A stretch of DNA of 64,000 nucleotides, taken from contig NZ_CP087131.1 in assembly GCF_020911865.1 (NCBI RefSeq), forward strand, positions 310,001-374,000, given 5' to 3'. Position numbers and translations under genes: made by a program. The notes beneath the pieces were generated by a model. It was not told where the DNA came from. It searched no databases and saw only the letters and a program-made list of their open reading frames with translations. Below are positions 13,649 to 15,354 of the stretch, piece after piece (position 1 is the first letter of the stretch; every line of letters starts with the position of its first letter). The DNA comes from Chryseobacterium sp. C-71 (GTDB lineage: Bacteria > Bacteroidota > Bacteroidia > Flavobacteriales > Weeksellaceae).

Positions 13649-14734
13649 ATGGAAAACTTTATAGTATCTGCAAGAAAATACCGCCCCCAACAGTTTGACA
13701 CCGTTGTTGGGCAATCACATATTACAGATACTTTAGAGCATGCTATAGAAGAAAATCAGTTAGCACAGGCTCTGCTTTTCTGTGGCCCACGTGGAGTAGG
13801 TAAGACAACTTGCGCAAGAATTTTAGCAAGAAAAATAAACGAGAAAGACGGTTCTGTTTCAGAAGACGGTTTTGCTTATAATATATATGAGCTAGATGCT
13901 GCATCTAATAACTCTGTTGATGATATTCGTGAATTAATTGATCAGGTGCGTTTTGCACCGCAGGTTGGTCAGTACAAAGTGTATATTATTGACGAGGTAC
14001 ACATGCTGTCATCTGCAGCATTCAATGCCTTTCTGAAAACTTTGGAAGAACCGCCGGCTCATGCAATTTTCATTCTTGCAACGACTGAAAAGCACAAGAT
14101 TATTCCTACCATTTTGTCTCGTTGTCAGATTTATGATTTCAAAAGAATTACAATTCTTGATATTCAGAGCCATTTAAAAGGTATTGCTGAAAAAGAAAAT
14201 ATTAGATATGAAGATGATGCTTTGTATTTAATTGCTCAGAAAGCAGATGGAGCATTACGAGACGCGCTTTCTATTTTTGACAGACTTTCTACGTTTTCAC
14301 AGAAGAATATTACGTTGGCCAAAGCTGCCGAAGTTCTTAATATTTTAGATTACGATCAATATCTAAAGATTGTAGATTTTGCGAAAGAAAATAAAATTCC
14401 TGAAGTTCTTTTTGCTTTTAATGAAATTGTAAAAAGAGGGTTTGATCCGCATATTTTTATTGCAGGTTTAGGAAATCATTTCAGAGATTTAATGATGGCT
14501 CAGAATGCTTCAACAATTGATTTGATTGAAGTGGGAGAGCAGACCAAAACAAAATTTGTTGAGCAGGCTCAAAAATGGAATGCCCAGCAATTAATCGATG
14601 GAATTGAGATTTGCAATCACGCAGATATCAATTATAAAAATTCGAAGAACCCGAGGCTTACTGTAGAAATTGCTTTGATGCAATTGGCTTCTCTCACTGC
14701 AGGTGGAGATGTTGCTAAAAAAAAAAGTTTATAA
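13649..14734 (+). CDS. dnaX: DNA polymerase III subunit gamma (short dnaX product)
   Basis: Clamp-loader ATPase, 361 residues as read without frameshift. Walker A is GPRGVGKT (46-53), Walker B DEVH (115-118), sensor 1/SRC is TILSRCQIY, and domain III ends in NPRLTVEIALMQLASL, where the frame stops within 15 residues. It thus contains domains I-III and corresponds to gamma. The four-cysteine zinc module usually found between Walker A and Walker B is missing, replaced by a short loop (NEKDGSVSEDGFAYN). The C-terminal part of tau is encoded in the -1 frame directly downstream. Loads the beta clamp at the replisome. Confidence 0.95.
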   Translation: MENFIVSARKYRPQQFDTVVGQSHITDTLEHAIEENQLAQALLFCGPRGVGKTTCARILARKINEKDGSVSEDGFAYNIYELDAASNNSVDDIRELIDQVRFAPQVGQYKVYIIDEVHMLSSAAFNAFLKTLEEPPAHAIFILATTEKHKIIPTILSRCQIYDFKRITILDIQSHLKGIAEKENIRYEDDALYLIAQKADGALRDALSIFDRLSTFSQKNITLAKAAEVLNILDYDQYLKIVDFAKENKIPEVLFAFNEIVKRGFDPHIFIAGLGNHFRDLMMAQNASTIDLIEVGEQTKTKFVEQAQKWNAQQLIDGIEICNHADINYKNSKNPRLTVEIALMQLASLTAGGDVAKKKSL

Positions 14735-14775
14735 TATTAGCTCCCTTCCTTCATGAAAAGCAGGAGATAATATTA
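14717..14775 (+). promoter_or_regulatory. Candidate programmed frameshift site: A10 slippery run plus stem-loop
   Basis: Ten consecutive A residues occupy 14717-14726, read in frame as three AAA codons and then AGT TTA TAA, with the stop at 14732-14734. A stem forms between 14732-14744 (TAATATTAGCTCC) and 14763-14775 (GGAGATAATATTA), 13 bp with one mismatch and an 18-base loop. It starts five bases after the A run. A -1 slip gives AAG TTT ATA and continues open to 15354. The same result follows from one extra A (or two fewer) in the transcript. This is the layout of known dnaX recoding sites. Confidence 0.75.
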
Positions 14776-15354
14776 CCTTCAAAAGTTCAGGTCGAACAAA
14801 AAAAAGAGGAATTAGTTGTAAACCCACAGCTTACAGAAGAAACATCAGCGGAAAGAACGATTAAAACTTCTTCAAAACCTTTGTCAAGACCTAAATCTTC
14901 ATCAGGTTTCAGCATCAATTCTTTTTTAAATAAAGAAGAAAAACAAGAAGTTGAAGAAACCGCTGTTGTAACAAATGAGAATTTGCAGGAACATCATTTC
15001 ACAGAAACTGATCTTCAGTCTGAATGGAACTTGATGCTTATGAATCTGCGTGCGAAAGATCCATTTGTTTATAATGCCATCAAATCTTTCAAACTTGAAA
15101 AGATTGATGAGAAATTAATTCAGGTTCAGTATCCTTCAGAGTCTGCAAAGGCAGAATTCGATAAGATAAGCGGTGAATTTTTCAATCATTTTAAAAGAAA
15201 AGTAAATAATTACGCAATCATAATTGAATATAAACAAGATGTTCAAAATCTTAAAATTGAGGTACTTACAACCAAGAAGAAGTTTGAAAGGTTTGTAGAG
15301 ATGAATCCTTTATTAAAAGATCTTGATGATTTAATGAAGTTTGATTTAACTTAA
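14725..15354 (+). CDS. dnaX: DNA polymerase III subunit tau, C-terminal part in -1 frame
   Basis: The frame is open without interruption from the slippery A run to TAA at 15352-15354, giving about 207 residues beyond the join and a full-length tau of about 568 residues. It begins with a flexible linker rich in Lys, Glu, Ser and Thr (for example QKKEELVVNPQLTEE). A globular end follows with LQSEWNLMLMNLRAKDPFVYNAI and ends LLKDLDDLMKFDLT, a C-terminal domain pattern of DnaX proteins in Bacteroidota. No independent start with a good leader is evident at the linker, which argues for expression as a frameshift fusion. In other bacteria this part binds the replicative helicase and polymerase alpha. 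Confidence 0.8.
   Translation, partial: KFIILAPFLHEKQEIILPSKVQVEQKKEELVVNPQLTEETSAERTIKTSSKPLSRPKSSSGFSINSFLNKEEKQEVEETAVVTNENLQEHHFTETDLQSEWNLMLMNLRAKDPFVYNAIKSFKLEKIDEKLIQVQYPSESAKAEFDKISGEFFNHFKRKVNNYAIIIEYKQDVQNLKIEVLTTKKKFERFVEMNPLLKDLDDLMKFDLT

Follow-up and report, generated by a model that had tools for sequence, protein, structure and literature searches.

A poly-A run at the gamma/tau boundary of dnaX in Chryseobacterium sp. C-71 and other Bacteroidota as a putative transcriptional slippage site

The dnaX gene of Chryseobacterium sp. C-71 is divided between two reading frames that meet at a run of ten A's. Comparison with related loci makes it quite probable that transcriptional slippage is programmed at this run, which would yield both gamma and tau from the one gene. 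RNA polymerase would realign on the run and leave a mixed pool of dnaX mRNAs. Transcripts with ten A's (or 10+3n) would stop at the TAA at 14732 and give gamma of 361 aa, and transcripts that gain one A (or lose two) would join the frames and give tau of 568 aa. We infer the occurrence and the frequency of slippage, and the service of both proteins in the clamp loader. The features of the locus are given below; the window is the whole stretch of 64,000 nucleotides that was analysed, and all positions refer to it.

13649..14734, + strand: zero-frame ORF of dnaX, gamma-type clamp-loader subunit of 361 aa, domains I-III (ORF reading and domain matches)
14702..14709, + strand: SD-like stretch GGTGGAGA upstream of the run, not conserved (sequence)
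14717..14726, + strand: A10 run, putative slippage site (sequence; A9 or more at the same place in 173/176 loci)
14725..15354, + strand: C-terminal extension of tau in the -1 frame, 209 codons and stop (ORF and profile match)
14732..14734, + strand: zero-frame TAA ending gamma (sequence)
14732..14775, + strand: stem-loop described in the sequence-only reading, not conserved and probably not essential (folding, alignment and recoding tests)

The sequence-only reading of this DNA had proposed a run of ten A's with a prompt zero-frame stop after domain III, a tau-like C-terminus in the -1 frame, and the gamma/tau pair as products of one gene. The first two are borne out and the third is supported. 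The zero frame reads GCT AAA AAA AAA AGT TTA TAA across the run, with the TAA five bases past the A10. Pfam places DNA_pol3_delta2 at residues 22-167, the lid at 172-211 and DNA_pol3_gamma3 (domain III) at 221-349 of 361, and the protein scores 388.6 bits against TIGR02397 (cut-off 250). Read from 14725, the -1 frame runs for 209 codons to a TAA at 15352-15354, and one added A (or a -1 shift) joins the two frames into 568 aa by count. The tau part from 14779 matches positions 429-613 of the NCBIfam profile PRK14971 (dnaX gamma/tau) with an E-value of 1e-11 and 44.4 bits, which is far under the whole-protein cut-off of 685, as expected of a part. A Pfam search of the tau part of the window gave no family above cut-off. 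The genome is a single contig of 4.22 Mb and has a single match over the dnaX family cut-off. Among the 80 named matches listed, the nearest dnaX is that of Chryseobacterium lathyri (94% over 345 columns). Plasmids gave no match to the dnaX of the window at 'near' sensitivity.

The A-run and the frame of tau in relatives

A run of A9 or more is found at the gamma/tau boundary (-60 to +100 of the gamma end) in 173/176 dnaX loci. Three neighbouring windows of 160 nt taken from these loci have one in 0/177, 1/176 and 0/176; therefore, its position is not due to chance. These loci range from genus to phylum and include many close relatives. They were picked by hand as the best matches in genus and family together with two-ORF and single-ORF examples from beyond, so their counts are not those of random samples. 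Four loci (L186, L222, L226, L257) were dropped for want of a gamma match, and L061, a member of the genus, is counted with the family.

Long runs of A or T are scarce in the window compared with a first-order Markov expectation, with one of length 9 seen against 11.6 expected and one of length 10 against 5.1. A10 has one match in the window compared to a mean of 13.8 in shuffles. An excerpt of PMC1088944 takes the scarcity of such runs as selection against slippage, and the scarcity here is counted in favour of slippage at the A10. The A10 is not unique in its own genome, which has 47 matches forming 34 distinct runs of 10 or more. Thirteen of the 33 other runs lie in sense within ORFs of 90 aa or more, three of them within 17 nt of the assumed start codon. 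Four of the genome's runs (L203, L204, L212 and L215; A10-A11) are located deep in ORFs of 910, 908, 574 and 447 aa and are possible slippage or phase-variation sites.

Within the genus, dnaX is present in 148/148 genomes searched and its open frame measures 361-376 aa in 146 of these. The two outlying frames are 350 and 281 aa; the shorter genus frames are those of genomes G063 and G127. The run was read in 47 genus loci (L009-L055, window included) and is A10 in 29, A11 in 16, A12 in one and A9 in one, L011. All 46 loci with A10-A12 have tau in the -1 frame. In L011 (assembly G093) other runs are also one base shorter than those of the window, which gives the A9 the look of a homopolymer error that would disturb the annotation of dnaX. 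The family sample has a match in 146/148 genomes, with an open frame of 361-419 aa in 143 and long single frames of 560, 593 and 584 aa in the other three.

The longest frame after the run, over 177 loci, is -1 in 153, +1 in five and zero in 19, so that -1 accounts for 153/158 of the frame-shifted loci. The 153 include two loci with short runs (L151 and L154, A8), and tau homology proper was detected in 132/178 loci. The run is A10-A13 in 149 of the 153, and among the -1 loci with A9 or more its codon phase is 0, 1 and 2 in 100, 18 and 33. The five +1 loci include L011 from the error-prone assembly and L185, where the +1 frame is open for only 129 codons. L185 comes from a small genome of 0.63 Mb in the same order and its dnaX has an A11; by contrast, dnaX frames of about 485-540 aa are found in the majority of those listed under its genus code. 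Seventeen of the 19 zero-frame loci are single ORFs with A10-A11, L145 lies at a contig end and L184 has no run.

Among the 80 named matches listed, A9 or more is present in 69, as A10 or A11 in 66, and the tau frame of the 69 is zero in 45, -1 in 21 and +1 in three. On an 81-row Bacteroidota tree, a quick tree with several long branches, the frame requires at least 16 changes among the run-bearing rows. Sisters may differ in frame, as with Aquimarina mytili (0) and Aquimarina sp. RZ0 (-1). The single-frame genes L067-L069 of the family carry an A11 whose phase is that of the A10 in many relatives, so that one base of run length appears to decide whether gamma or tau is templated. Among the 45 named single-ORF loci with a run, the more distant of the two stops in the alternative frames lies at a median of 4 codons (maximum 14), against 15 codons at positions drawn at random in these ORFs. 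Since both other frames close soon after the run, slippage in these genes would give gamma instead of tau. The -1 layout of the window would then represent a single Bacteroidota device in one of its three equivalent settings, and a run that is kept through at least 16 frame flips amounts to a natural experiment on slippage.

One locus in the comparison, L305, comes from a metagenome bin titled Chryseobacterium gleum. Its dnaX is 58% identical to that of the window and clusters with those of L306 and of a Crocinitomicaceae bin. The organism label is probably wrong.

Slippage and its alternatives

The sequence-only reading had held ribosomal shifting and slippage to be equal. Of the two mechanisms for tau, the comparison within the group favours slippage, in so far as sequences can separate them. 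A ribosomal -1 shift needs seven bases and one direction, whereas slippage yields every frame from a single run. The run is kept at 9-10 bases or more in all codon phases and with all three frame relations, while the stem and the SD-like stretch are not conserved; therefore, slippage is favoured. The authors of GeneTack make a similar argument in an excerpt of PMC3711429, where mixed directions within one function are taken as a sign of slippage and a single direction as a sign of ribosomal shifting. Several observations go the other way: the -1 bias among the frame-shifted loci is beyond what slippage alone demands, the structure after the run in the genus exceeds the synonymous expectation, 17 of the -1 loci have an AAG at the end of the run, some lineages have no run, and the genome contains other runs of this length.

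It is possible, if doubtful, that slippage and ribosomal shifting both contribute. Ten A's permit either mechanism and a minor ribosomal share is compatible with the comparative tests; however, nothing requires a second mechanism. This explanation overlaps with slippage, and the likelihoods given to the two do not sum to one.

Ribosomal -1 frameshifting on A_AAA_AAA, helped by a downstream stem-loop and making tau from the frame that terminates as gamma, is improbable as the main mechanism. The A10 contains the required A_AAA_AAA and the frame relation is -1 in 153/158 of the frame-shifted loci. An excerpt of PMC5009743 mentions ribosomal shifting to tau for genes of the same layout. A zero-frame AAG at the end of the run, which makes a good ribosomal site, is found in 17/153 of the -1 loci; ten of the 17 belong to genus code g35, whose site resembles that of named Flavobacterium loci. 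However, AGT and not AAG follows the run in the window, and a ribosomal shift would leave unexplained both the length of the run and its retention in single-ORF and +1 genes.

The stem-loop of the window is another point in favour of ribosomal shifting. It had been described as a 13-bp stem at five-base spacing with the stop inside it; the spacing and the position of the stop are correct, and the stem consists of 12 bp and one 1x1 mismatch (14732-14744 with 14763-14775). Its 5' arm starts with the stop codon. Its modest stability of -9.2 kcal/mol is reached by 19/200 dinucleotide shuffles (z -1.45) and by only 2/100 synonymous recodings (z -2.24). Alignment of the site in relatives, which had been suggested as a check, finds the run kept and the stem not kept. 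The 11 outer pairs are all present in 1/46 genus sequences and 10/11 in two more, in a count that is off register for the A11-A12 rows. On aligned rows of the same 46 sequences, 65.8% of the cells of the window structure pair compared to 65.7% when shuffled. Covariation in the stem is no better than in shuffled sequences over this set, and RNAalifold gives no consensus pair for the genus. Therefore, the stem-loop was rejected as a conserved -1 stimulator.

The structure after the run has a mean z of -0.92 against synonymous recodings over 45 genus sequences and of -0.36 over 69 family sequences. Across 45 windows scanned along the gene, the mean z ranges from -1.30 to +0.49, with the two windows at the site at -0.89 and -1.06. 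Since other parts of the gene reach -1.30, structure at the site is low yet not distinctive. An Rfam search of the window gave no match at the gathering score. The SD-like element is not conserved either: GGTGGAGA is present in the window, and only 12/46 genus loci have an AGGA, GGAG or GAGG ahead of the run. An SD is a major feature of dnaX shifting in E. coli (PMC5009743, excerpt), and Bacteroidia ribosomes fail to recognize the SD, with the anti-SD sequestered (PMC9976891, excerpt). The pattern found here fits the latter report.

Production of the C-terminal part of tau as a separate protein by downstream re-initiation is very unlikely. An ORF with a TTG start is available at 14881-15354; however, the -1 frame extends upstream into the run without a stop, and genes with a zero-frame tau retain the run as well. 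In addition, tau functions fused to the AAA+ part.

The least credible explanation is a sequencing error in a gene that is truly one frame, or a broken gene: homopolymers are error-prone and assembly G093 has the A9 and other shortened runs, yet the frame lengths in 146/148 genus and 143/146 matched family genomes and the -1 tau behind A10-A12 in 46/47 genus loci, the single dnaX match in the genome and a tau that varies most at third codon positions (53811, 41272 and 104422 pairwise differences at positions one, two and three over 46 genus sequences) argue against both. On these sequences, the interruption in the window is not a sequencing error. The sequence-only reading had named an A11, and so a single open frame, or relatives without the run, as results that would speak against it; the assembly reads A10 and the relatives keep the run. 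A dnaX that looks truncated or frameshifted to annotation software may be explained by the run.

Boundaries without an A-run

The A-run device is not universal in Bacteroidota and some lineages are without it. Gamma in these lineages needs another explanation. The run is absent near the boundary in 11 of the 80 named loci; ten have not even an A6, and L311, scored as run-less, has an A6 with an A10 further on. On the quick 81-row tree with its several long branches, presence of the run needs 7 changes. Of 48 additional loci drawn from Bacteroidota at large, most of them single-ORF, 30 have A9 or more and 18 do not; the search extended to the end of the ORF and is hence permissive.

Two of the named loci without a run, both Bacteroidales (L328 and L344), have a gamma that ends in UAG with the same frame continuing. 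Around G773, the genome of L344, dnaX is matched in 79/81 sampled genomes. Of the 31 loci first read there, 15 lack an A-run and meet a stop early in the zero frame. The stop is UAG in 15/15, the same frame is open for 186-254 further codons, and the nine bases after it are AUW-GCH-AGR in 15/15.

L344:2299-2346 and L328:2299-2346: UAG-form dnaX, first two loci, UAG-AUW-GCH-AGR at the gamma end
L351-L355, L357, L359, L361, L363, L365, L368, L371 and L372: UAG-form dnaX, other 13 loci

The codon choice in this motif is far from that of the genes themselves, which suggests a constraint on the nucleotides. The Arg is AGR in 15/15, and AGR makes up 10% of Arg elsewhere in the same genes; the Ile is AUW in 15/15, and AUC makes up 61% elsewhere. 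The tails vary most at third codon positions, with 6326 differences compared to 5174 and 4240 at first and second positions in an ungapped count. A search for PylS finds 0/15 UAG genomes over the cut-off, with weak matches in three, and 1/14 control genomes over it. Two of the 15 tau frames themselves end in UAG, and hence UAG does not act purely as a sense codon. The in-frame UAG with its fixed 3' context is a candidate for programmed readthrough. A hairpin after the UAG, at first thought compensatory, was rejected with a mean z of +0.43 over the 15 loci against synonymous recodings. Rfam gave three matches in four UAG loci, all below the gathering score and none at the UAG site.

A total of 61 loci (L328, L344 and 59 others) were sorted with most of the UAG motif serving as a rule, giving 15 of the UAG form, 16 two-ORF genes with A9-A11, six single-frame genes with A9-A10, 15 single-frame genes without a run and nine others, six of which are cut by contig ends. 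The 15 UAG loci form one side of a branch with a support of 94, adjoined by single-ORF genes without a run. An 18-base form of the motif is absent from 395 phylum genomes, so the clade is either narrow or was not drawn in that sample. Two loci of the wider 61-locus set have an early stop with neither run nor UAG motif. L406 has an early TAA with the -1 frame open for 221 codons, and TTTTGGGGG, which precedes the stop, is perhaps another slippery site. L396 has an early TAA and no A9 run, and its +1 frame is open for 201 codons.

The chances are even that Bacteroidota hold the dnaX boundary by interchangeable devices, namely an A9-A13 run in three settings and UAG readthrough in one clade of Bacteroidales. 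To our knowledge, few bacterial housekeeping genes undergo programmed readthrough, and no report of dnaX readthrough of this kind was found in titles and abstract openings of the literature. If true, the UAG clade would add a further route to gamma and tau beside slippage, ribosomal frameshifting and the proteolysis known from Caulobacter (PMC5009743, excerpt).

Comparison with known systems

The known systems are described here after excerpts of the cited papers. In E. coli, dnaX has A_AAA_AAG with an SD-like sequence and a stem-loop, and gamma is the shifted product (PMC5009743, PMC3711429). The window shares with E. coli an A-rich site and, putatively, the gamma/tau pair from one gene. In contrast to E. 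coli, its zero-frame codons are AAA-AAA-AAA-AGT, with no AAG, and the stem-loop and SD-like element present in the window are not conserved in the genus. The poly-A interruption of tssM in Citrobacter rodentium is rescued by transcriptional frameshifting with two length variants (PMC4256274). It resembles the window as an interrupted gene, in another gene and another phylum.

The A9 run in dnaX of Thermus thermophilus gives mixed mRNAs and both gamma and tau by slippage (Larsen et al. 2000, as described in PMC1088944, PMC5009743 and PMC3711429). The dnaX of the window has an A-run as well, and a gamma/tau pair is proposed for it. The roles are exchanged: Thermus templates tau and obtains gamma by slippage, whereas the gene of the window templates gamma and would need the slip for tau. 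The window has no single templated tau ORF of the Thermus type and requires a frame change. The Thermus layout is found in single-ORF relatives, among them 45 of the 80 named matches listed.

The closest match is the GeneTack cluster of Antonov et al. 2013 (PMC3711429), in which 17 two-ORF dnaX genes from 12 genera were called a new structural type and slippage was proposed. Twelve of the 17 have a poly-A, nine of them with 10 A's. The window has the same features, with domains I-III in one ORF, tau in the adjacent ORF at a -1 shift at the DNA level, and A10 at the junction. The Antonov set has one direction, whereas the genus- to phylum-wide sample here adds the 0 and +1 relations. No other report of phylum-wide conservation of the run with a changing frame was found in titles and abstract openings of the open full-text literature, supplements and subscription papers aside. 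The window is an example of the known two-ORF poly-A dnaX, and the frame flipping around a kept run is an addition to it.
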